IMG/VR virus record: IMGVR_UViG_3300006924_000242 | Location: 1 to 21,543 of that record | Direction: 5' to 3' (one strand) | DNA: 21,543 nt | Origin: a virus | Shown here: piece by piece, positions 1-20,396 of the stretch | Layout: every line of letters begins with the position of its first letter | How positions within the stretch are numbered: the stretch's first letter is position 1 | Program-made: the position numbers and the translations under genes | The notes under the pieces: generated by a model | Told to the model about the DNA's origin: nothing | What the model saw: only the letters and a program-made list of their open reading frames with translations | Databases searched by the model: none

Positions 1-3000
1 ACTACAGCAAACATTGCTGATAGTTTATTATTAGCATTACAGTCTACATCAGGAACACTACACAAAATTACAACAACTAGTGTTTGGACAGGAACAAATC
101 CAAGACAAGCATCAATATCAGCACCTAGCATTTTAGACGGAACTTACAACGTAGTTCAAGTTAACCTTGGTGCAAAACGTTGGGCTGATGTTTGGGTAGA
201 TAACATTGTAACTAACGGTATTAATACCGGAACTATTATTGTTGACGGAGTTGACCTAACACTACGCCAAGGTAACATTTTTTATGTTGCAGAAAATGGC
301 GATGATACACATACAGGAACGCATCAACAAGATCCTTTTGCAAGTATCAGTAAAGCACTTAGTGTTGCAAGTTCAGGAGATACAATTCATGTATATCCTG
401 GTATATACACAGAAACATTTCCACTAACTGTTCCAGTAGGAGTTACAGTTAAAGGACAAGGTATACGTGGCGTAACTATACAGCCAACAACAGCAACACG
501 TTACAATGATGCATTTTTGCTCAATGGCGAAACGACTATTGAAGATTTAACAGTTAGTGATTTTTATAGTGGCGGAGCATTCCACGACACAACAGCGGCA
601 AGCGCAGGATCTGCAACTTTAAATGTTGGAACTGCACCATTTGCACACACGTATGTAAGTGGCGGAACAATTACATTTGGTGGCACTGATTATGCAATTA
701 CAAATGCTGTTTATACTCACGGAACTGGCGAATTAGTAATTACACACGCAGGACCAGATGCCGGCGTAGGAACAAATACATTTATTAAAGATATTGTGTT
801 TAGTTGCAATGGCGGTAATAGAACATTCCCAGACAACGGATATGCATTCCGTTTTGCTACAGACTTTGAAGTAACTAGTCGTTCACCATACATTAAAAAT
901 GTATCAGTAATTACAAAAGGTAGTGTAACAAGTGCAAGTGATCCAAGAGGCTTTGATGCAGGAGATGCAGGTAAAGGTGTATATGTAGATGGTGCATACG
1001 CAACTATAAATTCTAAAGAAGCGGCAATGTTATTTCATAGTGCAACATTTATTACTCCAGGAGTTGATGCACTTACAGCAACAAACGGTGCTAGAATAGA
1101 ATGGTTAAACTCATTTACATATTTTGCAAATAGATCAGCATACGCATTTGATAGTAACGATGGTCTAAAAGGCGAAGGTAAAACACGTATTAGATTAAGT
1201 GGTATCTCCGGCACATTTGCTGGCGGCGAAACAATTACATTTACATCTACAGATAATTCAACAGTAGTTACTAAAGTAATTAACAGTGTTGAAAACAGCG
1301 ACACACTTGTTATTAATGGAAAAGACACAGGCTTATTAGGATTTGACTTTACTCCGTTAAGTATATCATCAAGTGGCGGAGCAAGTGCTACTGCTATTGA
1401 AAGTTTAGATCTAAGAGACTTTGGTGCTGAAATACGCATGATTGGTAGTGCTAGTGTTTACGGTAATAATGGCTTAGTAGGTGACGGACCAGGTGTATTA
1501 GTTTACGCTATTGGACACAACCTTGCATATATTGGTAATGGTAAAGCAGTTACTAATGATCCATCAACTGTAATACAATCACAAGAAGTTATTGAATCTA
1601 ACGATGCACAAATACGTTATAACTCAGTTGACCATAAAGGTGACTTTAGAGTTGGTGATTTATTTTATGTAAACCAAGAAACAGGTAGTGCTTCATTTAG
1701 TGTTAGTGATTTTGTAATTAACACAACTAACGGAGTTACATTTAACACAGGTAGCGACACTACTTTTGTTGATGGTTCAAAAATTGAAACTGGTGATTGG
1801 CGTATAAGTGGCAACACAATACAAACACTAACACAAGATGCAAACTTTAATGCCGCTAGTGGTACAATTAAATTAAATGATAATGTAGATATTACAGGTA
1901 ACCTTGATGTAACAGGTAATGTTACAATTGGCGGTAATATTACAATTGGTGACGAAGCAACAGATACAATAGAAATTGTTGCAGGAATTGATAGTGACAT
2001 TATTCCTAAACTTAATGGTGTATATAGCTTAGGTGAAGCAACTAAACAATGGAGCAATATTTGGGTCAATCAAGTTAACATTGATAGTATAAAAATACGT
2101 GATAACTTTATTGAAACTACAGAGTCAAATGCAGATTTAGAAATAAGAGCAAACGGCACTGGCAACATCTATATACCAAACAATAATGTACAAATTGATA
2201 ATGCTCTTACAGTTGCAGGACTTGCAACACTTGCTAATACAAATATTACAGGTACAGTAACGCATGTAGGTACTACTAACCAAACTGGTACTACTAATGT
2301 TACAGGTAATGTTACTGTAACACAAAACTTAGATGTAGGTGCCGCGGCACAGTTTGAAGAAATATTAATTGATGATAACTTTATTACTACAACTACAGGA
2401 AATACAGATTTAGAATTTCGCACAAGCGGAACAGGTAATATTATTGTTCCAGATAATAATGTTAACATAACAAATGATTTAACAGTTGCAGGCGATATTA
2501 GTGCAAGTAACTTAACTGCTAGTGCAAATATAACAAGTGCAACAGCAAACATTGGCGATGTACAAATTAGCGGAACAACTGTAGAAGCAACGGCTTCAAA
2601 TGCAGATTTAGAATTACGTGCTAACGGAACTGGAGATGTAACCGTTCCTACTAGTAATGTTGTGCTTGGCCAAGCACTTCAAGTTTTGGGTACTACTGAC
2701 TTACAAAATGTAAACTTAGGTGGTGTTCTTACACATTTTGGTAATACTGTACAAACAGGTAACTTTACCCTTACTAATGGAGAGTTTACAAACGGCGATA
2801 TTAAAATTGATGGTAATACAATTGAAACAACTGCTTCGAGTTCAAACTTAGAACTACGTGCAAATGGTAGTGGTATTATTAGTATACCAACTAACAATGT
2901 TGCAATTACATTAAATTTAGATGTTGACGGTGATACAGATTTACAAGCAACAAATATTACAGGTACACTTACGCACTTAGGCGATACTAACCAAACAGGA

Positions 3001-5551: not shown

Positions 5552-8500
5552 ATGGCAGAGTTTAAGTTAGATAGATTTAAGTATGTTTGGAAAGGTGATT
5601 GGACCCCAACTACTGACTATCGAAGAGACGACATTGTAAGAGTCGGCGGTAAAAGTTATGTGTGTATTGTTACACATACTTCAAGCGGAACGTTCCTTAC
5701 AGACTTAGAAGCAACATTACCAGGATCAAGTCCACCACAACCATATCCACAATGGACGGTGATGACAAGTGGTAAATCTTTTGCTGGCACTTGGACACAA
5801 GGCGTTGCATATAACTTAGGTGACATAGTACTTTATAACGGCTCTTTATATAAATGTAATGATTCACACAACAGCGGAAACTTTGCTTCAGAATATCCTT
5901 TTTGGGATCTGTTTGCATACGCACAAGAATTTTTAAAAGATTGGACAACAGCAACAACATATGCACCAGGCGGCATTGTAAAATATAACGGTATAGTTTA
6001 TATTTGTCATATACCACATACATCAAGTTCATTACTAGAAGATAATATTAATGACTGGTTAGAATTTGGTAACGGTATTGAATACAAAAGCACATGGACT
6101 GCTGGCGTTGACTACAGAAAAAATGACTTAATACGCTACGGTGCTAACATATTCCGTTGTACAACTAGTCATACAAGTGCAGGTTTAGCATTTGATCAAA
6201 CTAAATTTCAAATTGAATTTCCAGGTACACAAGCAAACTTAGCTGTTTGGCAAGATACTGAATTTTACCAAGAAGGTGACGTTGTACGTTACGGTGGATT
6301 TATTTACTTTGCAATAGCAAATAGTATTGATGTTGATCCTAGTAGAAGTCAAGAAGATAGTACAGTAGCATGGATTGTACTTGCTAAAAACTCAAGTTTT
6401 GCAGGTGAGTTTGTTTCAGGCACAGCATATAAAACAGGTGAACTAGTTTTACGTGGTGGTTATTTGTACAGAGCATTAACTGATGTTAACGTTGTTGATG
6501 GTACAGATAGTACTGTAGATTATTTAGATAATAGTATTTGGGAAAAAGTTGCTGAAGGTAACAAGTGGTCAGAAGTATGGAAGGAAAACACTAACTACGC
6601 AGTTGGTGAAGTTGTTTACTATAAAGGTAGTGCGTATGTTTGTACATTTGAACATGATGCTACACAAAGAGACAATCCAGAAAACGGTAGCGGATATAGT
6701 TATTGGGATCTACTTATTCAAGCAGGTCGTCCAGCAGGTATGGATACCAAAGGTGACTTACTTACATACAACACATTAGATGACGGCAGTTCACAAGGCG
6801 ATATTGGACTACCAATTGGACAAGAACAACAAGCTCTATCAGTTGCTGACGATTATGAAGCATTTTGGAGAGACTTTGCTAATGATGCAGAAGCAGTGTA
6901 TGTTGCACCAAAAGGATTTGACTTACCTGGTTACGGCAAAGACTGGAAACAACCTTTTGCAACTATTAGACATGCTTGTGAATATATCGAAGATACATTT
7001 CCAGCACTAACTCCTGCAAAAATATTTATTGCGGCAGGCAGATATGAAGAAGTTGGACCAATAGCAGTTCCAGCAGGTTGTGTTGTTATGGGAGATGAAT
7101 TACGTGCAACAAACATAATTGCAACTCCTGCAATTCCAGAATACGAAGACAACTATCAATATGTAAAAGAAACAGATACTTATATTAGTGGATTTATTTT
7201 AGATCTTATACAAAATCAATTCTTAACACCTACAAGCGGAAATAGTGAACCACAAGTATTAGTAGGACCAGTATCAGATCAACCTACAGCACAAAGAATT
7301 TTAGAATTAATTGCTGAATATGAACAGTTTATTGAATTCCGTTTACCTACAGAATCAGGAGATGTTGATCCTGCTCAAACAACTGTAGCAAACGATTTAA
7401 CAACTAACTCAGCATTTAAAGCGGCATCAGAACAGTTGATGGCTAACAGAGAATTTATTGGTAACGAAGTGTATGCAAGACTAACACTAAACTTTCCAAG
7501 CGTTACATTTACTAAGAAATATGTTTTAGCAGATGTAAGAGCAATGATTAGAGGTGTTGCACAAGACTTATTATACGAAGGCAATCATAGAACATTATAT
7601 GCGGCAAGACGTTATACAAATAGTGCATTAGGCGGACAGTTTGATGACTTGTTTTATATGAGAGATACTACAGGACTAAGAAACTGTACAACTGAAGGTC
7701 TTACTGGAACACTAAATCCTCCAGGCGTGTTTGACTTATATCAACGTCCAACAGGTGGCGCACTTGTATCATTAGATCCAGGTTGGGGACCAGCAGACGA
7801 ACGTGTTTGGATTAAAAATAGATCACCATACATGCAAGGTGTAACAAACTTTGGCTTTGCTTGTGCAGGTATGAAAGTTGACGGAAACTTACATAATGGC
7901 GGCAACAAGTCAATGGTTGCAAACGACTTTACACAAGTATTAAGCGACGGTGTTGGAGCATGGATTACTAATAATGCTAGAGCAGAACTTGTGTCAGTGT
8001 TTACATATTATTGTTCAGTTGGTTACTTGTCAGAAAATGGCGGCATTATACGTGCAACAAATGGTAACAACTCATATGGTAGATTTGGTAGTATTGCATC
8101 AGGTGGAGACACAACAGAAGTTCCACAATCAACTACATTAATGAATAGAAATAACGAAGCACAAGTTGATAAAGTATTTGCAGGTTTATCAGATGATAGA
8201 ATCTTAGCATTTGAATTTAGTCACACTGGTGAGAAATATACTAGTGCAACTTCAACAGTAACAGGTGCTGGATCAAGTGTTAGTACAGAATTTAGAGATT
8301 ATAGAGCCGGTGCTTTATTCCAAGCAAGACTAGTTAATACTCAAGGATCAGGAAGCGAAGGCGGTAGTAATTATCTAGTAAGACAGGGTTACGCACAGGA
8401 AACACCAAATGCCGCAAGTACACTAAAATTATCAACTACAGATGCAACACAGTTTTATAATGAAATTGAAGGCATGAGAGTTGTAGTTTTATCAGGACTA

Positions 8501-11047
8501 GGTGCAGGACAGTATGCATATATTACTGCATATAATAGTGCAACTAGAGAAGCTACTTTGACAAAAGATTCAGATGGTACATTAGGGTGGGATCATATTA
8601 TTCCAGGAACTCCTTTAGTAGCATCATTTGACGCAACTACATATTATAGAATAGAACCAAGAGTAGTTGCAAGTGATCCAGGTTGGTTATCAGAAAATAA
8701 AACTATTGAACGTTTAGATTACGTTAGTGCAGACTTTGGCGGAACAAGTCAGTTATATCCAAGTTTAGATGGTCAAGTAGGAACAGGCGAAACTTTTGGA
8801 TTAGATCCAATTGCAAGTAATTGGCGTGTACAACGTTCAGGTAACATTTATACACTAACACTAGTAACTGGCGGTGCTGGTTATGCAGTTAACGATACAA
8901 TTACACTAAGTGGTACAGACTTAGGAGGCGCAAGTCCTGCTAATGATATTTCAATTAGAGTAGCATCAGTTACAGACGATAGTTCAAATAGTGTTGCAAC
9001 ATTTACATATTCAGGTGAACCAGTAGGCGGATTATTTGTTGCTATTGATGATAAATCACAGGCGGCATATAGTGCAGATGGCAACACTTGGGTACAAGTT
9101 AATTTAAGTTTTGACGCTGGAACTGATGAATACATAAAAATATTAGCAGAAGAAAATAAATTCTTAGCATTTGCTACAGGAATGAATACTTACAGTTATT
9201 CAGAAACAGCAACAAGTTGGACTACTAGAGCATTGCCAATAACTAGAAATTGGACTGATGCGGCTTTTGGTAGCGGTACGTTTGTATTAGTTGCTTCAGG
9301 AACAGCAGATGCACTTTATAGTACAGATGGACTAACATTTTCACAATCAGTATTACCACAAACAGATGACTGGGCGGCAGTACAATACGGTCAAGGAACA
9401 TTTGTTGCAGTAACAAGTGGAGCAACACAAGACGTTGCTACATCACCAGATGGTATTACATGGACACTGAGAAACGCAGTATTACCAGCAGGAAGTAAAA
9501 CTTGGACTAATGTATTATTTGGTAAAAATAGATTTGTTGCTATAGCAACTGATGGAACAACAGCATATTCATTAGACAAGGGTGTAACTTGGACAGCAGG
9601 TGGTAGTTGTAACGAAAGTGGAGCCTTTGTTGTTAAAAACGGCATATATTCGCAAGGTGTGTTTATGGCAGTTGGTTGGGCAACTACAGTTGGATCTGGC
9701 TTTACACTAGAAGGTTATGAAAATGCATTAGTATCAGAAGACGGTATTACATGGACACCACAATCATTAAATTTAAGTTATAAGTGGGCGGCGATTGCTG
9801 AAGCACCATTAGACGGAACTCCAAAGTTCATGGTAATTGCACAAGATGCAGACGGTGGCTTACAACATGTAACAACAGGATGTAAAGCTCTTGTTAGAGC
9901 AAGTGTTAACCAAGGTAAATTCCAAGACTTATTAATATGGGATCCAGGCAGTGGTTATAATGATGCAAATCCTTTAACATTAACTGTTACAGATACGCAA
10001 TTTGTATCAGAAGTTGAATTTGAAAATAGAATTGGTACAGGAGTGTTATCACAACCAGACTTTATTAATAGAGGTGGCGGTTATCGTATAACAAGTACAA
10101 ACGTAACTATTGCAGGTGATGGTTATGCAGATATTGTACCAGAAGCGGCATTTATGACACTAGCAGGAGTTGCAACAATTCCTGGACCAGGTGTGCAAAT
10201 TAAATTTGAAGGCTTATTAGAAGAAGCTACAGATGACCCAAATGATTTAAAATTATTCTCAGGTATTGAAATTACAGATTTAGGTGATGACGGTAGTGGC
10301 GCAGGAACAAGACTAGTTGCTTTTAAAGTTTCTCCAAGATTAAGAAACGAATATAATTTAGCACACGGTACAGTTGTAACACTACGTGAACGTTATAGTC
10401 AGTGTAGAATTAGTGGACACGACTTCCTAGACATTGGTACAGGTAACTTTGTAAACACAAACTATCCTGACATATATGCAGGCGGAGCGTACTACACAGC
10501 GGCACCAGAAAATGAAGTATTAGAGCAAACAGGCGGAAGAGTATTTTATGTAAGTACTGACCAAGATGGTAACTTTAGAACAGGTGAATTATTCAGTGTA
10601 CAACAGGCAACAGGTATTGTTACTATTAGTGCTGAATTCTTTGACTTAGACGGTCTGTCAGAACTAGCACTTGGTGGTGTTAGATTAGGTGGTTCAGGTA
10701 CAGTTGTTAATGAATTTAGTACAGACCCAACTTTTGCGGCAGACTCCAATCAGGTTATTCCAACACAAAGAGCTATTGCTTCATTCTTAGCAGACAGACT
10801 AAGTGTTGGTGGTGAGAACTTAGAGACAAACGCAATACAGGCAGGACAAGTAAGAGTTGGTACAGTTGATAACGTTATAGAACATGCATCAGACGGCGCT
10901 ATTGACATACCAATTGATGTTTCAATTGATGGAACATATACATCGACAGATGAGTTTGGTGTAGAGACAACAGAACAAGTTGCAATAAGTGGTACAATAT
11001 ACACTATGCAACAATTAATGAAAGGCCATGACGACTCTGTTCAATAA
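5552..11047 (+). CDS. Giant multidomain tail-fibre/adhesin-type protein, 1831 aa
   Basis: The domains in order are: seven CBM5/12-like repeats (residues 9-391); a TKGDLL linker (399-430); a DUF1565-like beta-helix entry (447-522, YVAPKG then PFATIRHA, IFIAAGRY, VPAGCVVMGDELRATN); one helical repeat (about 617-690) with VRAMIRGVAQDLLYEGN; a conserved beta-helix block (730-848, SLDPGWGP, NRSPYMQ, MVANDFTQVLSDG, ATNGNNSYG); beta-rich sequence; six Asp-box motifs (1157-1432); and a C-terminal module (1616-1750) with GHDFLDIGTGNF, DGNFRTGELF and VIPTQRAI. The start is fixed by the strong AAGGAG. The MAEFKL-R N-terminus matches the next gene, so the two are tandem paralogues, perhaps sharing an attachment site. 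The expected role is host-surface binding in the tail or baseplate (inference). No hydrolase active site was recognised, and there is no signal peptide, as expected for a cytoplasmically assembled virion protein. Confidence 0.88.
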   Translation: MAEFKLDRFKYVWKGDWTPTTDYRRDDIVRVGGKSYVCIVTHTSSGTFLTDLEATLPGSSPPQPYPQWTVMTSGKSFAGTWTQGVAYNLGDIVLYNGSLYKCNDSHNSGNFASEYPFWDLFAYAQEFLKDWTTATTYAPGGIVKYNGIVYICHIPHTSSSLLEDNINDWLEFGNGIEYKSTWTAGVDYRKNDLIRYGANIFRCTTSHTSAGLAFDQTKFQIEFPGTQANLAVWQDTEFYQEGDVVRYGGFIYFAIANSIDVDPSRSQEDSTVAWIVLAKNSSFAGEFVSGTAYKTGELVLRGGYLYRALTDVNVVDGTDSTVDYLDNSIWEKVAEGNKWSEVWKENTNYAVGEVVYYKGSAYVCTFEHDATQRDNPENGSGYSYWDLLIQAGRPAGMDTKGDLLTYNTLDDGSSQGDIGLPIGQEQQALSVADDYEAFWRDFANDAEAVYVAPKGFDLPGYGKDWKQPFATIRHACEYIEDTFPALTPAKIFIAAGRYEEVGPIAVPAGCVVMGDELRATNIIATPAIPEYEDNYQYVKETDTYISGFILDLIQNQFLTPTSGNSEPQVLVGPVSDQPTAQRILELIAEYEQFIEFRLPTESGDVDPAQTTVANDLTTNSAFKAASEQLMANREFIGNEVYARLTLNFPSVTFTKKYVLADVRAMIRGVAQDLLYEGNHRTLYAARRYTNSALGGQFDDLFYMRDTTGLRNCTTEGLTGTLNPPGVFDLYQRPTGGALVSLDPGWGPADERVWIKNRSPYMQGVTNFGFACAGMKVDGNLHNGGNKSMVANDFTQVLSDGVGAWITNNARAELVSVFTYYCSVGYLSENGGIIRATNGNNSYGRFGSIASGGDTTEVPQSTTLMNRNNEAQVDKVFAGLSDDRILAFEFSHTGEKYTSATSTVTGAGSSVSTEFRDYRAGALFQARLVNTQGSGSEGGSNYLVRQGYAQETPNAASTLKLSTTDATQFYNEIEGMRVVVLSGLGAGQYAYITAYNSATREATLTKDSDGTLGWDHIIPGTPLVASFDATTYYRIEPRVVASDPGWLSENKTIERLDYVSADFGGTSQLYPSLDGQVGTGETFGLDPIASNWRVQRSGNIYTLTLVTGGAGYAVNDTITLSGTDLGGASPANDISIRVASVTDDSSNSVATFTYSGEPVGGLFVAIDDKSQAAYSADGNTWVQVNLSFDAGTDEYIKILAEENKFLAFATGMNTYSYSETATSWTTRALPITRNWTDAAFGSGTFVLVASGTADALYSTDGLTFSQSVLPQTDDWAAVQYGQGTFVAVTSGATQDVATSPDGITWTLRNAVLPAGSKTWTNVLFGKNRFVAIATDGTTAYSLDKGVTWTAGGSCNESGAFVVKNGIYSQGVFMAVGWATTVGSGFTLEGYENALVSEDGITWTPQSLNLSYKWAAIAEAPLDGTPKFMVIAQDADGGLQHVTTGCKALVRASVNQGKFQDLLIWDPGSGYNDANPLTLTVTDTQFVSEVEFENRIGTGVLSQPDFINRGGGYRITSTNVTIAGDGYADIVPEAAFMTLAGVATIPGPGVQIKFEGLLEEATDDPNDLKLFSGIEITDLGDDGSGAGTRLVAFKVSPRLRNEYNLAHGTVVTLRERYSQCRISGHDFLDIGTGNFVNTNYPDIYAGGAYYTAAPENEVLEQTGGRVFYVSTDQDGNFRTGELFSVQQATGIVTISAEFFDLDGLSELALGGVRLGGSGTVVNEFSTDPTFAADSNQVIPTQRAIASFLADRLSVGGENLETNAIQAGQVRVGTVDNVIEHASDGAIDIPIDVSIDGTYTSTDEFGVETTEQVAISGTIYTMQQLMKGHDDSVQ
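5576..6724 (+). repeat. Seven CBM5/12-like repeats in the 1831-aa protein
   Basis: Seven units of about 50-65 residues start near residues 9, 76, 127, 176, 230, 282 and 337. The pattern is W-x(6-9)-Y-x-x-(G/N)D-(I/V)-V-x-(Y/V)-x-G-x-x-Y-x-(C/A), then often HTS, ending W-x-x-x-x-x-G. The aromatic W-x(n)-Y and GD-(I/V)-V-x-Y-x-G-x-x-Y core resembles the chitin-binding type 3 (CBM5/12) fold. Units 5 and 6 lack the Cys and His positions. Sugar binding is a family-based guess; the ligand is unknown. Confidence 0.75.
9020..9847 (+). repeat. Six Asp-box (BNR) repeats, likely beta-propeller, in the 1831-aa protein
   Basis: Asp-box motifs (S-x-D-x-G-x-T-W type) lie at residues 1173 (YSADGNTW), 1216 (YSETATSW, degenerate), 1256 (YSTDGLTF), 1297 (TSPDGITW), 1339 (YSLDKGVTW) and 1394 (VSEDGITW). 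They are spaced about 40-55 residues, each preceded by a strand of the form FG-x-G-x-FV-A-V. This is the layout of a six-bladed propeller. No sialidase arginine triad or RIP motif is evident, so binding is more likely than catalysis. Confidence 0.75.
10397..10801 (+). other. Conserved C-terminal fibre module, copy 2
   Basis: Residues 1616-1750 hold SQCR, GHDFLDIGTGNF, NTNYPD, GGRVFYVSTDQDGNFRTG, LFSVQQATG, LGGVRLGGSG, EFSTDP and VIPTQRAI in order. The matching segment of the 3098-aa protein (19830-20222) keeps every block in the same order. The nucleotides are also close, for example around GHDFLDIGTGNF. It is probably a shared trimerisation or attachment domain. Confidence 0.75.
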
Positions 11048-11099: not shown

Positions 11100-14000
11100 A
11101 TGGCAGAGTTTAAATTAGGTAGAATTAGATTCGTTTGGAAAGGTACATGGAGTACTGGCAGAACGTATTATCAAGACGATGTCGTCACAGTAGGCGGCAG
11201 AATGTACATATGTACGATTGGACATGAAAGTGACGCAGACTTTTATAACGATTTCGATATAGTACCCCCAAAATGGAATCTTGTTTCAGATGGACAAGCA
11301 TGGAAGGGTAACTGGTCCCCAAATACAGCATACATTTACAATGATATTGTAAAATATGGCTCAGGACTTTATATTGCAAATACCAATCATACTTCTGCAA
11401 ATACAACGGGCACAGGCTCTTTTGCAGTAACAATAGAAACAAATGCTTCTGCTCCAGGCAATAATGTTTTTGTTGTCGATGGTGTACAATATCCAAACTT
11501 ACAACTTACTGCTGGTTACACTTATACTTTTGTACAAGATGATGAATCAAATGATACTCATCCGTTTTTATTCAGTGAAACAAAACACGGTACACACAAC
11601 GGTGGAACTACATACGAAACAGGCGTTACTTACTACCTAGACGGCGCTGTAGTTGCTGATAAAGCAACTTATGTTGGAGGCTTTGATGCGGCAACAACAC
11701 GTAAAATAGTAATTGCAGTTACAGGCGCAACTCCAGATCCTTTATACTACTATTGTCATAACCATAACAACATGGCAATTGATGCAGAAATTGATATTCA
11801 ACTTGTTGGATTAGAAAATGACGAATCAAAATGGGATACCTTTACAAACGGTATTACTTGGAAAGGTGATTGGCAAACAGGCTTTGGTTATAAAGTAAAT
11901 GACATTGTTAAATATGGCGGAAGTTCATATGTGTGTAATACAGCACATACTTCAGGATCATTATCCGATGGCTTAGAAGTAGACCAAGCAAAATGGGATT
12001 ATCTAAACCAAGGTATTGAATATAAGTCACAGTGGATTACTGGAACACGTTATAAAGTAAATGACGTAGTACGTTACGGTGCTAGTTTGTGGATTGCAAC
12101 AGCACAGCACACAGGTTCAGCATCATTTGGTACTGACAGTGCTAATTGGGAAAAATTTGTAGAAGGCTTCCAGTACGAAGGCGAATGGGATGCCTATAAA
12201 GATTATCAACCAGGTGATATTGTACAATATGGTGGTTACCAGTATATTGCAAAAACAGATCACATTGGAGAGTTTCCTTCAACAAGTACAGTAAACTGGG
12301 ACTTGTTTAGTGAAGGATTTAAATTCCAAGACGAATGGGGTGCTGATAGTACAGCACAAGAATATAGAGTAGGTGACGTTGTACGTTACGGTGGTTTTAC
12401 ATATCTATGTATTTTAGACCACACTAACCAAGAACCACCAAATGCTACTTACTGGAAAAAGTTTACTTCAGGATTAAACTGGAGAGCAGTATGGGCAGAC
12501 GATGTAGAATACAAAGTTGGTGATGTTGCACGTTACGGTGATAACTCATACATATGTATTAACGGACATTTATCAGATGGTGATGGCGCAGGCAGTGCAG
12601 GCTTTGCTATTAACTCAAGACCAGACCAAGACACTGGTGGCGTATATTGGCAAGTTATTGCTGTTGGTACAGAACAATCTGTGCTTACTACAAAAGGTGA
12701 CTTAGTTTACTATAGTGGATCTGCTCCAACAAGATTACCAATTGGTGAAGATGGTCAAATTTTAACTGTTAACTCCGAAGGACTTCCTAACTGGGAATTC
12801 ATAGGCGAAACAGATGATGTTTATTATGTTGCAGGTCACGGTAAAGATAGCCCAGCACCAATATATGGTAAAACAATTGATAGACCTTTTAAAACTATTA
12901 GATATGCGGCACATCAAATTGAACGTGGTGCAAAGAATCCTAATGCGGCAAAACTACTTGAACTAAACAGAAGATTTATTCAAAGAGAAATTGTTGAATT
13001 TACAGACAATCAAATTACAAATAACGTTGCTCCATTTACAAGCAGTTTTGCATACGTTGCAGAAAAATGTGAAAGAGATATGGGTCTTATTGTAGACGCA
13101 GTTATTTGGGATATCAAACATGGCGGTAACGAACTTACATGGGACGCAATGTACGAGTATGTTAAAAATGCAACTAATTTTTACACACTAGGACAAGAAG
13201 CAGAAACAGTAGCAAGTATTAACTACGGTGTAACTGTAATGACTGCTGTTTTAAATCAAACAGCACCAGCAGTAAATTATCAAACATTAAATGGTGATAA
13301 CTCAACAGCGATTGTAGCACAACATACAGATGCAAGTTTATCTGCTGAAACTGTAATTGACCATATTACAGCAAATGTTAAAATGATAACAGATGCAATT
13401 ACAGCATCTAACCCAAATCAAGTGTTGCCTAAGAAAATTGTTCCAACAACATTAATTAAAGTTTCTACAGGATACTACTACGAAGTACTTCCAATTATTG
13501 TACCAGCTGAATGTTGTATTATGGGAGACGAATTACGTGCAACAAACGTACAGCCTCGCAAAGCAACAAATGCTACACTAACACCAAAACAAGATATACC
13601 ATTTAGTTTTGAAGGACTTTCTCGTGTAGAAGAAGTTGTTGCAGATATTGTTGAAGGTGTTGCAGTTTCCAAAACAACAGCAAATGCATTAACACAAGAC
13701 CAAACATGGCCTTATGCAGAAACTGATGTAGTTGGTCCGCAAGTACAAAAATTAGCACGTACTATACGTAGACAAATTGATAGTTCAACAGGTACTAAAG
13801 TTGAAGCAATTTATACACCTATATACGAAATGACTGATCCAAATTTTGGACGTTCAAGAGATTTATTCTTACAAAACAAAGCATTTATACAAGCAGAAAT
13901 AATTGCTTACATTGAAGAAAACTATCCAGGACTAAGTTACAGTAAAACAAAATGTAAAAATGATGTTGGCTTAATTATGGACAATGTTGCGTATGACTTA

Positions 14001-17000
14001 ACATACGGCGGTAACTGGATGAGTGTTGAAGCAGGTAAAGCATACTTCAACGGTAATACAAATACATTACAAATTAACAGTACTGAAAAAACAGCAACGT
14101 TAGCGGCATACGCACAACTTAAATCATTACTACAAACAGTTGGACGTAATATTGTAGTTAACCCAACTAGTCAAACACCAGATGATGCGGCAGACGTATC
14201 AACTGTTGCAGTTCCTCAAATTGCAGGTACAGGTGGTAGTGTTGCAGTTTCAACAGAAATAGGTAACTTACTAGACGATGTAATTTACACAATTGATAAC
14301 GGATATGACAATGCTCCGGCAATTACATATCCAACAATTCCAGCAACATCGGATGCACAGTTAGTACAAACTCAAACTACTACTGACTTACTAGGAATAC
14401 AAACTGGGACTATTGACTTTATTAGTAAGAACTTTGGTTCATTCAAATATAATAGTGCAACTTGTCGCAGAGATTTAACAAATATTATTACAGATGTTGC
14501 ATATGATGTAGCATTAGGTACAAACTATAACGGTGTGTTTAGTGGTATTGCTTATCAGCGTCCAACTAACTCATATAACTTAACATCACAGCGTATTGAA
14601 ACAATTGGTGCATTACGTTTTGCAAGAGATGAGCTAAAAGCAGACATTACTGATGCAACAGCAGAAGCAAGAATGGTTGCGGCATTTAATGAAATAGTTG
14701 ATATTATTGATAACGGACTAGCGGCGGCAGATGCAAATGTATATCCAACACCAAGTTCATTACCAACAACAAATGCTGATGATGCGTTTGCAGACTTAAA
14801 TGCAAACATTGCATTTATAAAAGCAGAAATTAATGCTTGGATTGATGATCAAGTTTTATTAAACACAACTACAACACCAGATCCAAACAGTATTTGGTTT
14901 AACTTTACATATGATGCAACTAAGTGTGCAAGAGATGTAGGCTATATTATTGAAGCAATGAAGTATGATATACTTTATGGCGGTACAATGGGAGCATCAA
15001 GAATTGCTGAATCCTACTTTGGAATTTACGGCGATACTTATCCTGCAGGCCAAACAGCACAAACTGCGGCGGCATATGATAGACTTGCTACAGTATTAGA
15101 TCAAATTGCAAGAGAAGCATCAGTAACTAAATCTTCAGGTAACGCATTGAACCAAACACAATTAGGTTCAGCGGCAACTTCAACTGAAGGTAATGCATTA
15201 CTTGCAAACATGCAAATTATTGAAGATGTATTAACAGCAGGAAATGCTAACGGCATGCCAGCAGTAGTATATCCAGACTTAGCATCATTAGGTGTATCAG
15301 CTACATTGCAAACTGAAAAAGGCGCAATGGATACTGCTAGAGCACAAACAATACTAGATGTTATCCAATATATTTCAGATACTTACAATGACTTTAATTA
15401 CAATCATGCTAAGTGTTCAAGAGATGTTGGATTAATTATAACTGCTTTTGTATACGACTATGCATTGAATACTAACTATGCTAGTATGTTTGCGGCGCAG
15501 TCATACTTAAGAGCACCAAGTAAAAATGTTGTTAACGATCAAAAAACTGCAAGTATTGCGGCATTTGAATTTGCAAGAACTAAAGTATTAGAATCAGTAG
15601 TTACAGCAGGTGGCTTTGCTCCAGCAGTACAAGCAGTAAACAATACTTGGGAATGGATTGATGATACAATCTTTAATGCTACAGCAGAAGGTGGTAAATC
15701 TAACAGCGATCAAGAAGTATGGAACGCAGTAAGACACTTAGAACTTAATAAAGAATTTATTGTAGAAGAAGTTGTTGCACACGTTGATGATTGGTTCAAG
15801 ATAGCAGTTTCCAAAACTGATCAAGCATCAAGCGTATTAACAGTAGCAGACACAAGTTGGTTAAAAGCAAATCAAAAAGTGCTTGCACAAAACATGGATG
15901 ACTCTGCAGACGCAGTAACAGACGCAAACCTTGCAGTAAGTACAACTTACTATGTTAAAGATATTTTAAGCGATACAACACTTACATTATCTGCAACACC
16001 AGGTGGTTCAGCTGTTGCATTATACGACACTGATTCAATTGTAGTACAATTAGATGAAGGTAAATTACGCAACGATATGTCTGATATAGTTGAAGGCATT
16101 GCATTTGATGCAGTTCTTAATACTAACTACAACCAAGTAGCATTAGGCTTAGATTTTGTAACAGGCGACAATGCATCAATAACTGCACTAGGTAAAACAC
16201 AAATTGCGGCAGGTATATCATATGCTAAAGGACTAGTTGCAGGAATAAAAGAGTTTAGAACAAATGCAACTTACTTGTCAAGATCAAATGCAGGATTTGA
16301 CGAAGTTACTGATATTGTAAACAACGGTGCAGGCAATGCAAACGCATTGACTTTCACAGGCACAAACAATGCAGTTGACCAAGTAGCAAACAATGAAGCA
16401 TTTATAGCAACAGAAGTATTAGAATGGATTAACCAAAACTATAATTCAATTTACACAGCAATGGACACTACACAGTTTACAACTGAAATAGGGTACATAG
16501 TTGATGCTTTAAGATATGACTTATTAAATGGTGGTAACAGTGCAACACATAGACTTGCTACAAGATACTTTACAAGCACAGAGTTTAAAGCTAACCTTGG
16601 TAATAATGCTACTGCAAGTGGACTTGCATTTAACTACTTACAATCGTTTATTGATAACATTGTATTAGATAATACAGCAGGTTGGTCAAAATTAAGCGGC
16701 GGAACACAAGATACATCTGCTTCAGCTGGTACAGCAACTCAAGCAACAACAGCACAAGCATTAGTAGGAATAATAGAATCAGTTGCAGGCGGTAACGCGG
16801 CAGGTGTTAAAAATTATCCAACAATGACACTAGCAAGTGCTACATCAGTAAGTAATGTTATAGCACATGCTTCTAAAATTGGAGTTAAAGCAGTACGTAG
16901 TGTAAGTAATACTTACAGAGCATCGTTTGAATTAAAAGCAGATTATGCTTACAATAAAACATTATGTAAACGTGATGTACGTGAATACATTGAAGCAATG

Positions 17001-20000
17001 AAATGGGATATGACTAACACTCAAGAGTGGGCAAGAACATATACTGACAACATTAGCTTTAATAGACCGGGTGCTTATAAATCAAGACTAGCGGCACGTT
17101 ACTATGTTAATAATGTAATAGGATCACAAGAAGAAGATTTCTACTACTTACGTAACGGTACAGGTTTAAGATTACAAACAATGGAAGGCCTACAAGGCGA
17201 CCTAAGTCCAGAAAATGCTTACGGAACAAGACGTCCAACAGCAGGTGCATATGCATCATTAGATCCAGGCTATGGTCCAGACGATGTAAGAGTTTGGATT
17301 AGTGCAAGATCACCGTACATACAAAACTGTACAACATTTGGATTTGGTGCAATAGGACAAAAAATTGACGGTGCCCTACACAACGGTGGTAACGACTCAA
17401 TGGTATCAAATGACTTTACACAAGTTATTAGTGATGGTATTGGTGCATGGATTACAAACAACGGTAGAGCAGAACTTGTGTCAGTGTTTACATACTATTC
17501 ACATGTAGGTTATCTTGCAGAGAACGGCGGACGTATACGTGCAACAAATGGTAACAACTCTTACGGTGCATTTGGATCAGTAGCAGAAGGTACTGACCCA
17601 GAAGAAATAGCAGTAACAGGTATCATTGATAATAAATTCCAGTATAACGCTACTGTAGCAACTGTTAATACAGATGCAGATCAGTTACTAGCATTAGAAT
17701 ACTCACATGCTGGTAATGACTATACTGAAGCAAAACTAGACTTCTTTGGACCAGGTTCAAACGAAGAAACAGTATCAGATGAATTTAGAGACGGTGCAGT
17801 TTATCAAGTTGGTATTGGTAATACAGTAAATGTTACAGACGGTGGTAAAGGTTACTTAGTTGTTACTAATACTGCACAAGCAGGTAGTACTACAAGTCTT
17901 ACAATATCAGCAACAGACGGTAACATTAGTTCAGCATACATTGGTATGAGAGTACAAATTGTTGGCGGTGCTGGTGCAGGTTTATTTGGTATAATTGACA
18001 CATACAATGCAGGTTCTAAAGTAGCAACTGTTGAAAGAGAAAGCGACGGAGTTGCAGGTTGGGATCATGTACTTCCAGGATTTACTTGGGAAGAACCTAA
18101 CTCAACTTCAACATATTTGATTGAACCAGCAGTTTCGTTTACTGCTCCAACTAACACTTCAGGTGATAGTACGCTACCAACATCAACAACTTGGTATGCA
18201 AACGAGTTTATTGAAACAGCGGCTCAATATACAGGAGTTGCTTCTGAAACTGAATCAGACGGTAATGGTGCAACATTTGATGTTACACGTAACGGTAGCA
18301 AATACTATGTTACAGTTAATGCCGCAGGTACAGGTTATGTTAGAAACGCAACTGTAACAATTAAAGGTTCTAACTTAGGTGGCGTAGATACAACACACGA
18401 TATAACAATAACATTAACATCACTTGATGCTAATGGTGCAGTTGTAGACTTTGACTTTATTGGTCAAGGACGCAAAGGATTCTTCCTTGGCGCAGGCGCA
18501 GGTAGTAACGGTGCAATTAGTTATGATGGTATTACATGGCAGTCACAAAATATTACAGCACCAGGTGCAGGTAATTGGTCAGACATTGCTCAAGGTTTAC
18601 TTGATGATGGATCAACTACATTCCACCCAAGCTCAATAATTATTGTTGGTGACGGAACTAACGACATAGCACGTTCCGGAGACGGCGATACTTGGACAGC
18701 TGGTACTTTACCAGGTGCAATGAGTAGTGCAGGTGAAAAGAGTGTTGCATTTGGTAACGTTGACGTTGCAGTTAATAGATACGTTGTTATTTCAGATGAT
18801 GACAGAGATGTTGCTTATTCAGAAGATGCAGGTCAAAACTGGACATTAACATCAAGTGCATTATCAGCAGTAGGCTTTGATAGTATTACATACGGAGCAG
18901 GATTATATGTTGCTGTACGTTCAGGAACAACAAGCATAAGTTACTCAACAAATGGTGTTGTTTGGACTGATGTTACTGCACCAGGAACAATATCAGGACC
19001 AGTAGTTTGGGGTAACGGACGTTTTGTTGTAACAGGCGGAACAGTTGGTGTAATGTACAGTTTAGATGGTATTACATGGGCAGATCCAGCATACCCAGGC
19101 GGTGCAAACGTAAGTACACTTGCTGGAACAGAACGTAACTTAGCATATGGACACGGTGTGTTTATTTTAACATCAGATGATACAGACGGAGTTCTTTATT
19201 CAGAAGATGCAATAGTTTGGACACTACAATCATTAGGATCTGCTGTAACAGGTGGATTTAATGCAGTTGCATTTGGTAACCCTGAGAAGATGGGAGTGTT
19301 TAGTATACTTCCTAATGCTACAGGTACAAGTGCAAAATACGCTAAGATTGGTGCTAGAACAAAAGCAAGAGCAGGTTTAGCAAATGAACAAATATTTGAG
19401 TTTAGAATTTATGAACCAGGTTCAGGCTACACAAGCGCACCAACTATTACTGTAACAGATCCAAATAACATTGAAGATGTTACACCAGTAGTAAGATTAG
19501 GAACAGGAGTACTTGGACAACCAACATTTATTAATAGAGGTAGTGGCTTTACAACTGCAACTGCATCAATTGATGCATTAAACAGTAACGGTAATGCAGA
19601 CTTCTTACAAAGTGGATCGTATATTGCTGTAAGAAGACTTACTGCAAGACCAGTTAACGGATCTAATGTTGAGTTTGCAGGACTTCCAGGACAATTCTTT
19701 AAGTTGGTTAGTACAGTATCGTTTATTGGTAGTAATGATGGATCGTATACAACGTTCTTACAAGTTTCACCAGCAATAACTACAGCAAATATTCCATCAG
19801 ATGGAGATGCTGTAAATATGCGTATCAGATTTAGTCAAGTACGTCTAACAGGACATGACTTCCTAGATATTGGTACAGGTAACTTTGCAGATACTAACTA
19901 TCCAGGTGTACCAGTTAACGTACCTAACCAGGATAGAGAAACACAAGATGCTAATGGTGGTAGAGTGTTCTACACAGCAACTGACCAAGACGGTAACTTT

Positions 20001-20396
20001 AGAGTTGGTGACTTGTTTAGTGTTGAACAGGCAACTGGTGTTGCAACATTGAACGCTGAAGCGTTTAACATTGCAGGTCTACAAGAACTATCATTGGGTG
20101 AAGTTACACTAGGTGGTAACTCAGCAAGTATTACTGAATTTAGTACAGATCCATTCTTTACTGCAAACAGTGATACGATTGTTCCAACACAGCGAGCGAT
20201 TAAGGCATACATTGAATCACAAATTGGTGGTGGTGGTGCTACGCTAGTTGTTAACAGTGTTACAGCAGGTGATATATTCATAGGCGGAACACAAATTACA
20301 ACAGTGTCAGGTAGCCCAATAACAATTAAAGCGAACATTGTGTTCAGTGGTACAGTGCTAGGATATCCTCTAGCATGGAATTATTACCAGAGATAA
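11100..20396 (+). CDS. Giant modular tail-fibre/adhesin-type protein, 3098 aa, with nested domain insertions
   Basis: It is a tandem paralogue of the 5552 product, with the same MAEFKL-R start and domain order. Domains: seven CBM5/12-like repeats (7-523), the second interrupted by a cupredoxin-like domain (107-237); a TKGDLVYYSG linker with LPIGEDGQIL (531-556); a DUF1565-like beta-helix entry split by an insertion (573-613 and about 783-818); eight helical repeats (613-2006), one containing a beta domain (about 1571-1651); a conserved beta-helix block (2044-2160, SLDPGYGP, ARSPYIQ, MVSNDFTQVISDG, ATNGNNSYG); six Asp-box motifs (2459-2738); and a C-terminal module (2911-3041) ending in VPTQRAI. 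GGAG at 11086-11089, 10 nt upstream, supports ATG 11100. The frame is uninterrupted over 9.3 kb, arguing for a functional protein. A host-recognition or long-fibre role is inferred. No enzyme active site was recognised. Confidence 0.88.
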   Translation: MAEFKLGRIRFVWKGTWSTGRTYYQDDVVTVGGRMYICTIGHESDADFYNDFDIVPPKWNLVSDGQAWKGNWSPNTAYIYNDIVKYGSGLYIANTNHTSANTTGTGSFAVTIETNASAPGNNVFVVDGVQYPNLQLTAGYTYTFVQDDESNDTHPFLFSETKHGTHNGGTTYETGVTYYLDGAVVADKATYVGGFDAATTRKIVIAVTGATPDPLYYYCHNHNNMAIDAEIDIQLVGLENDESKWDTFTNGITWKGDWQTGFGYKVNDIVKYGGSSYVCNTAHTSGSLSDGLEVDQAKWDYLNQGIEYKSQWITGTRYKVNDVVRYGASLWIATAQHTGSASFGTDSANWEKFVEGFQYEGEWDAYKDYQPGDIVQYGGYQYIAKTDHIGEFPSTSTVNWDLFSEGFKFQDEWGADSTAQEYRVGDVVRYGGFTYLCILDHTNQEPPNATYWKKFTSGLNWRAVWADDVEYKVGDVARYGDNSYICINGHLSDGDGAGSAGFAINSRPDQDTGGVYWQVIAVGTEQSVLTTKGDLVYYSGSAPTRLPIGEDGQILTVNSEGLPNWEFIGETDDVYYVAGHGKDSPAPIYGKTIDRPFKTIRYAAHQIERGAKNPNAAKLLELNRRFIQREIVEFTDNQITNNVAPFTSSFAYVAEKCERDMGLIVDAVIWDIKHGGNELTWDAMYEYVKNATNFYTLGQEAETVASINYGVTVMTAVLNQTAPAVNYQTLNGDNSTAIVAQHTDASLSAETVIDHITANVKMITDAITASNPNQVLPKKIVPTTLIKVSTGYYYEVLPIIVPAECCIMGDELRATNVQPRKATNATLTPKQDIPFSFEGLSRVEEVVADIVEGVAVSKTTANALTQDQTWPYAETDVVGPQVQKLARTIRRQIDSSTGTKVEAIYTPIYEMTDPNFGRSRDLFLQNKAFIQAEIIAYIEENYPGLSYSKTKCKNDVGLIMDNVAYDLTYGGNWMSVEAGKAYFNGNTNTLQINSTEKTATLAAYAQLKSLLQTVGRNIVVNPTSQTPDDAADVSTVAVPQIAGTGGSVAVSTEIGNLLDDVIYTIDNGYDNAPAITYPTIPATSDAQLVQTQTTTDLLGIQTGTIDFISKNFGSFKYNSATCRRDLTNIITDVAYDVALGTNYNGVFSGIAYQRPTNSYNLTSQRIETIGALRFARDELKADITDATAEARMVAAFNEIVDIIDNGLAAADANVYPTPSSLPTTNADDAFADLNANIAFIKAEINAWIDDQVLLNTTTTPDPNSIWFNFTYDATKCARDVGYIIEAMKYDILYGGTMGASRIAESYFGIYGDTYPAGQTAQTAAAYDRLATVLDQIAREASVTKSSGNALNQTQLGSAATSTEGNALLANMQIIEDVLTAGNANGMPAVVYPDLASLGVSATLQTEKGAMDTARAQTILDVIQYISDTYNDFNYNHAKCSRDVGLIITAFVYDYALNTNYASMFAAQSYLRAPSKNVVNDQKTASIAAFEFARTKVLESVVTAGGFAPAVQAVNNTWEWIDDTIFNATAEGGKSNSDQEVWNAVRHLELNKEFIVEEVVAHVDDWFKIAVSKTDQASSVLTVADTSWLKANQKVLAQNMDDSADAVTDANLAVSTTYYVKDILSDTTLTLSATPGGSAVALYDTDSIVVQLDEGKLRNDMSDIVEGIAFDAVLNTNYNQVALGLDFVTGDNASITALGKTQIAAGISYAKGLVAGIKEFRTNATYLSRSNAGFDEVTDIVNNGAGNANALTFTGTNNAVDQVANNEAFIATEVLEWINQNYNSIYTAMDTTQFTTEIGYIVDALRYDLLNGGNSATHRLATRYFTSTEFKANLGNNATASGLAFNYLQSFIDNIVLDNTAGWSKLSGGTQDTSASAGTATQATTAQALVGIIESVAGGNAAGVKNYPTMTLASATSVSNVIAHASKIGVKAVRSVSNTYRASFELKADYAYNKTLCKRDVREYIEAMKWDMTNTQEWARTYTDNISFNRPGAYKSRLAARYYVNNVIGSQEEDFYYLRNGTGLRLQTMEGLQGDLSPENAYGTRRPTAGAYASLDPGYGPDDVRVWISARSPYIQNCTTFGFGAIGQKIDGALHNGGNDSMVSNDFTQVISDGIGAWITNNGRAELVSVFTYYSHVGYLAENGGRIRATNGNNSYGAFGSVAEGTDPEEIAVTGIIDNKFQYNATVATVNTDADQLLALEYSHAGNDYTEAKLDFFGPGSNEETVSDEFRDGAVYQVGIGNTVNVTDGGKGYLVVTNTAQAGSTTSLTISATDGNISSAYIGMRVQIVGGAGAGLFGIIDTYNAGSKVATVERESDGVAGWDHVLPGFTWEEPNSTSTYLIEPAVSFTAPTNTSGDSTLPTSTTWYANEFIETAAQYTGVASETESDGNGATFDVTRNGSKYYVTVNAAGTGYVRNATVTIKGSNLGGVDTTHDITITLTSLDANGAVVDFDFIGQGRKGFFLGAGAGSNGAISYDGITWQSQNITAPGAGNWSDIAQGLLDDGSTTFHPSSIIIVGDGTNDIARSGDGDTWTAGTLPGAMSSAGEKSVAFGNVDVAVNRYVVISDDDRDVAYSEDAGQNWTLTSSALSAVGFDSITYGAGLYVAVRSGTTSISYSTNGVVWTDVTAPGTISGPVVWGNGRFVVTGGTVGVMYSLDGITWADPAYPGGANVSTLAGTERNLAYGHGVFILTSDDTDGVLYSEDAIVWTLQSLGSAVTGGFNAVAFGNPEKMGVFSILPNATGTSAKYAKIGARTKARAGLANEQIFEFRIYEPGSGYTSAPTITVTDPNNIEDVTPVVRLGTGVLGQPTFINRGSGFTTATASIDALNSNGNADFLQSGSYIAVRRLTARPVNGSNVEFAGLPGQFFKLVSTVSFIGSNDGSYTTFLQVSPAITTANIPSDGDAVNMRIRFSQVRLTGHDFLDIGTGNFADTNYPGVPVNVPNQDRETQDANGGRVFYTATDQDGNFRVGDLFSVEQATGVATLNAEAFNIAGLQELSLGEVTLGGNSASITEFSTDPFFTANSDTIVPTQRAIKAYIESQIGGGGATLVVNSVTAGDIFIGGTQITTVSGSPITIKANIVFSGTVLGYPLAWNYYQR
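11118..12668 (+). repeat. Seven CBM5/12-like repeats in the 3098-aa protein, one interrupted
   Basis: Units start near residues 7, 65, 251, 306, 357, 407 and 459. The shared pattern is W-x(6-10)-Y-x-x-(G/N/D)D-(I/V)-(V/A)-x-(Y/V)-G-x-x-x-(Y/W)-(I/L), HTS or a variant, then a closing W-x-x-F-x-x-G. Unit 2 runs normally to HTSANTTGTG, breaks off into a cupredoxin-like domain, and resumes at KWDTFTNG (residues 244-251). The number of units equals that in the neighbouring paralogue. Confidence 0.78.
11418..11810 (+). other. Cupredoxin-like domain with a full type-1 copper ligand set
   Basis: Residues 107-237 form a beta-sandwich-like segment: strand FVVDGVQYPNLQL, strand YTYTFVQ, then N-D-T-H154-P-F, a Gly/Thr-rich loop, VIAV-like strand, and LYYYC219-H-N-H222-N-N-M225. 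One upstream His plus C-x2-H-x2-M is the type-1 copper signature; the spacing matches amicyanin (C-x2-H-x2-M) and is shorter than plastocyanin (C-x2-H-x4-M). Cupredoxins usually carry electrons, but here the domain sits inside a phage fibre, so a structural, metal-stabilised or surface-binding role is as likely. I recall similar HPF ... YYYC-x2-H-x2-M segments in other marine phage structural proteins but could not check this. Confidence 0.65.
12936..17117 (+). repeat. Eight-copy helical repeat array (C-x-RD-x-G-x-I type)
   Basis: Each unit has an amphipathic stretch like N-x-x-FI-x-x-E-(V/I)-x-A-x-I, a short loop, then the core (K/T)C-x-RD-(V/M)-G-x-I-(I/V)-x-A-x-x-YD-x-x-x-GGN and a loop with a YP or NYP motif. 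Core positions are residues 657, 952, 1122, 1276, 1439, 1656, 1793 and 1956. Cys is replaced in units 6 (LRNDMSDI) and 7 (FTTEIGYI); RD becomes ND in units 2 and 6. Spacing is about 137-170 residues, except where other domains intervene. The 5552 paralogue has one copy (about 7400-7621). Function unknown; it resembles an expanded stalk spacer. Confidence 0.75.
18474..19313 (+). repeat. Six Asp-box (BNR) repeats, likely beta-propeller, in the 3098-aa protein
   Basis: Motifs are at residues 2474 (SYDGITW), 2525 (RSGDGDTW), 2573 (YSEDAGQNW), 2615 (YSTNGVVW), 2653 (YSLDGITW) and 2700 (YSEDAIVW). The count of six equals that of the 5552 paralogue at the same place in the domain order. Strands of the form (Y/W)G-x-G-(L/R)-(Y/F)V-x-V precede several motifs. 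No catalytic sialidase signature was recognised. Confidence 0.75.
19830..20222 (+). other. Conserved C-terminal fibre module, copy 3
   Basis: Residues 2911-3041 carry SQVR, GHDFLDIGTGNF, DTNYPG, GGRVFYTATDQDGNFRVG, LFSVEQATG, LGGNSAS, EFSTDP and VPTQRAI, collinear with 10397-10801 of the neighbouring gene. About 57 residues of beta-rich sequence follow before the stop. Confidence 0.75.

Follow-up and report, generated by a model that had tools for sequence, protein, structure and literature searches.

In amicyanin, the ligands of the copper are His53, Cys92, His95, and Met98, as given in the cited part of PMC12723479. Either Met or Gln is a natural choice for the axial ligand of type-1 copper, according to the excerpts of PMC517927 and PMC4059628 used here, and the former names stellacyanin, umecyanin, and auracyanin as proteins with Gln in place of Met. 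A blue copper protein gene is also found in cyanophages, namely petE for plastocyanin, which is described in the cited sections of PMC3037559 and PMC2984593 as a separate gene thought to serve the photosynthetic electron transport of the host, whereas the domain considered here belongs to a virion protein. Other reports touch on the subject from a distance. In the text available from them, PMC9605863 deals with cupredoxin genes of Borgs and not with phage virions, PMC7674155 deals with a phage-borne PmoC, and the copper in PMC10665884 and PMC10575957 is that of copper grids only. Cupredoxins and metal-bearing fibres are both known, but in the CC-licensed PMC papers that we examined we found neither a widespread family of virion-borne cupredoxins nor any phage virion protein with a cupredoxin domain described.

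The window, which is the whole stretch of 21,543 nucleotides analysed here, is 21.5 kb of virus DNA rich in long fibre-like genes, and its relatives suggest that it comes from a marine tailed phage. Rfam and tRNA scans over the window gave no match. Positions 1-4827 hold a fibre-like ORF of many SNSDLELRANGTGKVIIP-type repeats joined by short linkers. The domain of interest lies in another ORF of 3098 residues, which matches the PHROG family phrog_9851, 'tail fiber protein', with an E value of 4e-102 (best stretch, residues 253-566). The first ~520 residues of this ORF are CBM5/12-like repeats (Pfam CBM_5_12, E 9e-36, seven stretches within 11100-12800). The features discussed below are the following:

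5552..11047, + strand: paralogous fibre ORF of 1831 residues with a similar repeat array, no cupredoxin insert, and no CxxHxx[MQ] motif
11100..20396, + strand: fibre-like open frame of 3098 residues with the cupredoxin-like domain (phrog_9851)
11100..11414 (ends approximate), + strand: CBM5/12-like repeats 1 and 2, upstream of the inserted domain (Pfam CBM_5_12 and repeat listing)
11418..11810 (profile core 11457-11801), + strand: predicted cupredoxin-like domain, residues 107-237 (AlphaFold2, Foldseek, and VIA)
11559..11561, + strand: H154, putative first His ligand (His at this column in 147 of 147 clusters having Cys and the second His)
11754..11756, + strand: C219, putative thiolate ligand (paired by hhalign with the plastocyanin Cys)
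11763..11765, + strand: H222, putative second His ligand (paired by hhalign with the plastocyanin His)
11772..11774, + strand: M225, putative axial ligand (Met or Gln in 144 of 147 intact clusters)
11811..12660 (end approximate), + strand: rest of the CBM5/12-like array, resuming in the loop of repeat 2 (Pfam and repeat listing)

Between the core of repeat 2, which ends with NTNHTSA, and the restart of the repeat at LENDESKW, the 3098-residue ORF contains ~130 extra residues. This stretch looks like a modular insert, because it is missing from the comparable array of the paralogous ORF. The top four PHROGs relatives of the domain are a baseplate wedge protein, a tail fibre, a virion structural protein, and one family of unknown function. 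The initial annotation had placed the domain inside a virion adhesin, and this placement agrees with its position in the loop of a CBM5/12-like repeat array and with these four relatives.

The interval 11418-11810 is in frame, and H154 and the C219-x2-H222-x2-M225 loop are found at the positions first assigned to them, within ESNDTHPFLFSE and DPLYYYCHNHNNMAIDAEID. The spacing of the loop had been called amicyanin-type, and Cys-x2-His-x2-Met is indeed the spacing of amicyanin in the same part of PMC12723479. More generally, the window domain has His, Cys, His, and an axial Met or Gln in the order expected of type-1 sites. No Cys other than C219 is found from residue 39 to residue 278, and the whole protein has a single CxxHxx[MQ] motif. 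When the protein was shuffled 20,000 times, any CxxHxxM arose in 25 shuffles, and in 8 of these the first CxxHxxM was also preceded by a His at a distance of 30-75 residues. In the comparison with a 94% identical relative, a single pair with few differences, 13 of the codon differences are silent, 8 are replacements, and none falls on a ligand.

Sequence profiles place the domain near the known copper families and below their thresholds. No curated copper family in Pfam or NCBIfam matched the window domain, including Pfam Copper-bind (PF00127, gathering cut-off 21.2 bits) and the amicyanin family TIGR02657 (cut-off 110.2 bits). The search against copper families that the initial annotation had proposed was therefore negative for the window domain itself and positive for some relatives: two of ten relatives scanned singly exceed the Copper-bind cut-off (23.4 and 21.7 bits), and at E<=1 the Copper-bind profile picks up 4 of 55 relatives (best 8e-5). 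TIGR02657 gives 15.1 bits, below its cut-off, for a second copy of the domain found in near relatives, and at E<=0.1 it matches 23 of 29 members of an alignment of this second-copy type with fibre relatives (best 4e-4). PF25489 (At5g54830-like) was seen in 8 of 55 relatives with a best E value of 0.0012, below its cut-off where seen. When compared by hhalign with five cellular Copper-bind proteins, the window-type family aligned with an E value of 7e-6 and a probability of 84, over the Cys-His half only, and the second-copy alignment (21 second-copy rows plus eight fibre relatives from the window-type search) with an E value of 2e-8 and a probability of 95. PROSITE PS00196, in the pattern quoted in the cited part of PMC517927, matched neither the window domain nor any of 329 family domains. 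One reason is that PS00196 demands Pro or Gly before the second His, and this demand may be why such domains escape annotation. Neither the single domain nor either of two profiles gave a significant match when searched against PDB sequences (best E values 0.13, 0.04, and 0.12); one of these three lists is headed by antibody light chains (E 0.04 and worse), which we take as chance matches because of the YYC motif, and also contains a copper oxidase (E 0.15) and a pseudoazurin (E 0.22). Since the window domain misses the thresholds of PF00127, PS00196, and TIGR02657, we regard it as belonging to a cupredoxin-fold family separate from all three.

The structure of the window domain was predicted by AlphaFold2 from residues 107-237 together with 54 other alignment rows, and the model has a mean pLDDT of 91.7 and a pTM of 0.86. 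In model numbering, C219 closes the strand 109-113, H222 and M225 lie in the loop that follows, and H154 stands directly before the strand 50-53. This order of strands and ligands is that of cupredoxins. Foldseek against the PDB returned eight matches at E<=0.001, every one a rusticyanin (E 3e-4 to 7e-4, TM 0.43-0.46 by query), and the first match outside the cupredoxins is titin at rank 9 (E 0.006). The best VIA match is the N-terminal part of the nitrite reductase 2dv6 (Z 8.4, rmsd 2.6, 97 aligned residues, 14% identity), followed by two-domain laccases (Z 8.1) and rusticyanin (Z 7.9); a Z score of ~8 is modest and, by VIA's own note, at the edge of what is meaningful for the window model. 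All 50 VIA matches listed are copper nitrite reductases, laccases, other multicopper oxidases including CueO, or rusticyanins. With a confident model and cupredoxins leading both fold searches, the prediction is consistent with an eight-strand Greek-key sandwich and favours the cupredoxin fold that had been proposed. The window model also matches four BFVD entries, A0A481Z6J5, A0A481Z7Q7, A0A481YVH3, and A0A481YY19 (E 2e-6 to 1e-4), which are 'Beta-sandwich proteins' of Pithovirus LCPAC and Marseillevirus LCMAC.

The second copy was found in all three related contigs searched, in which the first domain is identical to that of the window or 93-94% identical. It lies at the C-terminus of a 549-residue ORF ~21 kb downstream, beyond this window. 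Its model has a pLDDT of 91.2, and Foldseek returned 55 PDB chains at E<=0.001. The 50 chains listed of these 55 have the cupredoxin fold; nitrite reductase, plastocyanin, amicyanin, and laccases are among them, as are oxidase subunits. The best VIA match of the second copy is nitrite reductase with a Z score of 11.5. As far as predicted models can tell, the second copy resembles cupredoxins (plastocyanin, amicyanin, and nitrite reductase) more clearly than the window domain does.

Relatives of the domain are numerous among marine phages. By tblastn, the window domain matches 235 of 50,697 phage records at E<=1e-3, of which 234 are named Synechococcus, Prochlorococcus, or cyanophage, and the second copy matches 246 of the 50,697 at E<=1e-2; some of the matches in both sets are ligand-less copies. 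The domain is also present in a Pelagibacter phage and a Methylophilales phage. In the records inspected, the carrier protein is annotated as a baseplate wedge protein (gp7), a tail-fibre connector (gp9), a tail fibre, a virion structural protein, or a hypothetical protein, and gp9 of S-CAM8 carries its copy at the C-terminal end. The virion of another such phage, S-SM1, was reported to contain 41 proteins (PMC3037559, in the part cited). Pattern searches of viral contigs, for which alignment subsets were used, as the wide alignment was too divergent, found 408 and at least 496 relatives, and 80 of each were kept. Ten further loci come from bacterial or archaeal genome contigs, which may be host or phage DNA, and every domain listed from these has Cys-x2-His-x2-Met except one (L307). 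Seven matches (L297, L305, L308, and L310-L313) fall in a single 1.2-Mb bacterial MAG (G004, also the home of L191), two of them in one 3942-residue ORF; these stretches may be of phage or host origin.

Several relatives have unusual forms. Cyanophage PSS2 gp080 (L016, 1564-1902) is a free-standing copy of 112 residues without the Cys or either His ligand, and L208 (1533-2894) has three successive copies in one ORF with no intact site. PHM1_104 of P-HM1 (L014) is recorded as containing PF07686, which we take to be the immunoglobulin V-set family, and M4QD42 of MED4-213 is recorded as an immunoglobulin domain. Perhaps these two records are due to the YYC motif.

The putative ligands are kept or lost as one set. 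We called 424 domains in 286 loci and kept 398, the others being too gappy or missing a ligand column, and these form 179 clusters at 80% identity. The Cys and the second His are both present in 147 clusters and both absent in 32, and no cluster has one alone. The first His accompanies the Cys-His pair in every one of the 147 clusters and is found in 10 of the 32 clusters without the pair. The axial residue of the 147 intact clusters is Met in 124, Gln in 20, Lys in 2, and Tyr in 1; Tyr is seen in S-RIM4 (L010, 949-1242) and Lys in L081 (2977-3375), both in otherwise intact sites. We note that this count favours intact sites, because the Cys-His loop was part of some of the patterns used to fetch loci. 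A cleaner sample was therefore taken from loci fetched by a pattern ending before the first His (best 80 of at least 350 relatives); the profile used to call its domains contained the ligand loop, and 142 of 155 domains were kept. At the fetched place, 25 of 48 clusters are intact (17 with Met, 8 with Gln), 23 have lost both the Cys and the second His, and none is half a site. Other copies in the same loci form 35 clusters, with 32 intact with Met, 3 lost, and 0 half. In the unfiltered set of 424 copies, both residues are present in 346, neither in 60, and the columns are unreadable in 17. The one remaining copy has His alone; it is a divergent partial copy (L275, ORF frame 3, residues 557-635) in which the columns of the first His, the Cys, and the second His hold Lys, Asp, and His, and it may be an alignment accident.

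The six ligand pairs rank 1, 4, 8, 9, 18, and 28 of 3580 column pairs by covariation, with scores that are inflated because ligand-less clades share descent. Where a Met or Gln loop was readable, it is C-x2-H-x2-[MQ] in 255 of 258 domains. On a tree of 129 domains with the ligand columns masked, parsimony gives seven changes of site state, at least two of them forced by well supported branches; 14 of the 126 inner branches are well supported, which makes the number of losses provisional. For a same-protein control, we collected ORFs in which one domain shares 40% identity or more with the second S-CAM22 gp7 copy and another copy precedes it, whatever the state of that earlier copy. Intact-then-lost is the arrangement in 37 of these 41 ORFs, while 2 have lost both sites and 2 have an earlier copy gapped at a ligand column (20, 1, and 2 of 23, respectively, when the earlier copies are clustered). 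All 87 neighbouring copy pairs comprise 40 intact-lost, 18 intact-intact, 7 lost-intact, and 4 lost-lost pairs, the remainder being partly unread. The fold itself does not require the site, since whole lineages lack the site and still carry the domain. A ligand-less copy beside a whole-site copy in one chain suggests that the ligands work together towards something other than the fold, for which metal binding is the simplest candidate. The complete type-1 ligand set described in the initial annotation therefore appears to be genuine, judging from the sequence, the joint retention or loss of the ligands, and their covariation. Routine loss of these residues in homologues had been named as a sign against it. 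Loss of single residues was not seen in the clusters, and loss of the whole site was seen in whole lineages.

The fold, the ligand set, the modular insertion, and the joint retention or loss of the ligands are supported by these computations, which make it likely that the cupredoxin-like domain holds a type-1 copper site. It is very probable that the domain binds some metal, and reasonably probable that this metal is copper. As a role, we lean slightly towards a copper-locked docking or stability module, and we infer its working as follows. A cupredoxin-fold module with a type-1 (blue) copper site would be inserted in a loop of a CBM5/12-like repeat of the virion fibre, as one copy of a large family in the fibres and baseplate proteins of marine tailed phages. 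The fibre would be synthesised metal-free in the host cytosol and, because this cytosol is reducing, copper would be loaded outside the cell: after lysis, the exposed His-Cys-His-Met pocket could acquire copper, either from sea water or from the envelope of the next host cell. The bound metal would then lock the ligand loop and produce a rigid face of the domain, which may dock with the host surface or an adjacent part of the tail, or the metal may simply stabilise the domain.

Metal stabilisation, redox sensing, and scaffold reuse had all been suggested as functions in the initial annotation, and pure scaffold reuse is disfavoured among them. On that account, the domain is a stable beta sandwich inherited from cupredoxins and used as a spacer or adhesin, and the ligand residues are relics or packing that hold no metal. 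The domain is retained in lineages without a site, such as the second gp7 copies and PSS2 gp080, and the carrier protein is otherwise made of repeats, both of which fit this account. Relics should erode singly, however, whereas the Cys and the second His are both present or both absent in 406 of 407 readable copies and the axial residue swaps almost solely between Met and Gln, so we consider scaffold reuse rather unlikely. Cys/His/Met pockets are able to take zinc, and H220-N221-H222 in the CHNH segment is an HxH motif as in the iron sites of T4 gp37, which could indicate a structural zinc or iron site in place of copper. Yet the position of H220 is T, S, V, A, K, E, or H in the 25 commonest loops, while the Cys, the second His, and the Met/Gln are fixed, and the x2-x2 spacing holds in nearly all readable loops (255 of 258); zinc or iron is accordingly an improbable alternative to copper. 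An immunoglobulin-like domain, with YYC as its core Cys, would agree with the PF07686 record of PHM1_104, the record of M4QD42, and the weak antibody light-chain matches. It is highly implausible given the rest. Immunoglobulin V-set domains have paired core cysteines, and the window domain has no second Cys to pair with C219; the best immunoglobulin structure stands behind eight rusticyanins at rank 9, and the listed matches of the second copy are cupredoxin-fold proteins.

Two other readings accept the copper and differ in its use. In one, a change in copper oxidation at the host surface triggers attachment or a baseplate change, or electrons are exchanged with envelope proteins. The ligand set is that of the electron-transfer cupredoxins, and copies occur in the gp7 and gp9 baseplate proteins of cyanophages, which are parts that rearrange in T4. 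We regard such redox sensing as improbable, to about the same degree as zinc or iron. In the other, by analogy with the iron hypothesis for phage tails, the loaded domain would be taken up through a copper-uptake receptor of the host. For marine phages, the iron version was put forward earlier (PMC11705849 in the part available, citing Bonnain 2016), and terminal copies exist in the 549-residue ORF of the near relatives and in gp9 of S-CAM8; the window copy is instead internal, between CBM-like repeats, and we consider uptake of this kind very unlikely. A broader picture can also be drawn, in which redox-active blue copper sites at several tail points (fibres, gp7, and gp9) of marine T4-like phages are loaded extracellularly and recognise the host surface or trigger there, so that the particles form a copper-binding pool in seawater, as a copper counterpart of the iron Trojan horse. 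This picture is doubtful. The copper-locked docking or stability module is still the role that we prefer.

Copper in these sites, if present, would make copper proteins of many marine phage particles, and it would join the iron already discussed for phage tails. This would offer a testable reason for metal-dependent adsorption and would bear on the trace-metal chemistry of sea water. The family gives an identity to many proteins whose present annotation is hypothetical, baseplate, tail fibre, or even immunoglobulin-like, and its ligand-less sister copies are a built-in control.

Among the known systems, amicyanin (TIGR02657), plastocyanin, and rusticyanin share their fold with the window domain as predicted, and amicyanin also shares the His...Cys-x2-His-x2-Met spacing. 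The window domain differs from amicyanin in having no Pro before the second His, and it has Pro after the first His, where the cited part of PMC12723479 gives Asn54 for amicyanin and Ser86 for rusticyanin. Amicyanin is a free periplasmic carrier, whereas the window domain is embedded in a virion protein. The N-terminal cupredoxin of 2dv6, a three-domain copper nitrite reductase, resembles the window domain as its best VIA match and as a module within a larger protein, but the identity is only 14% and the 2dv6 domain belongs to an enzyme. Fibres of the T4 gp37 type offer the likeness of a metal inside a phage fibre, the metal being putative in the window domain. In T4 gp37, as given in the portion of PMC11705849 cited, octahedral iron is bound by the paired His residues of HxH motifs, and the fibre is a trimer; the window domain would instead use a Cys-His-His-Met pocket in a single globular domain, and it lacks a conserved HxH, since the His at the position of H220 varies among its relatives.
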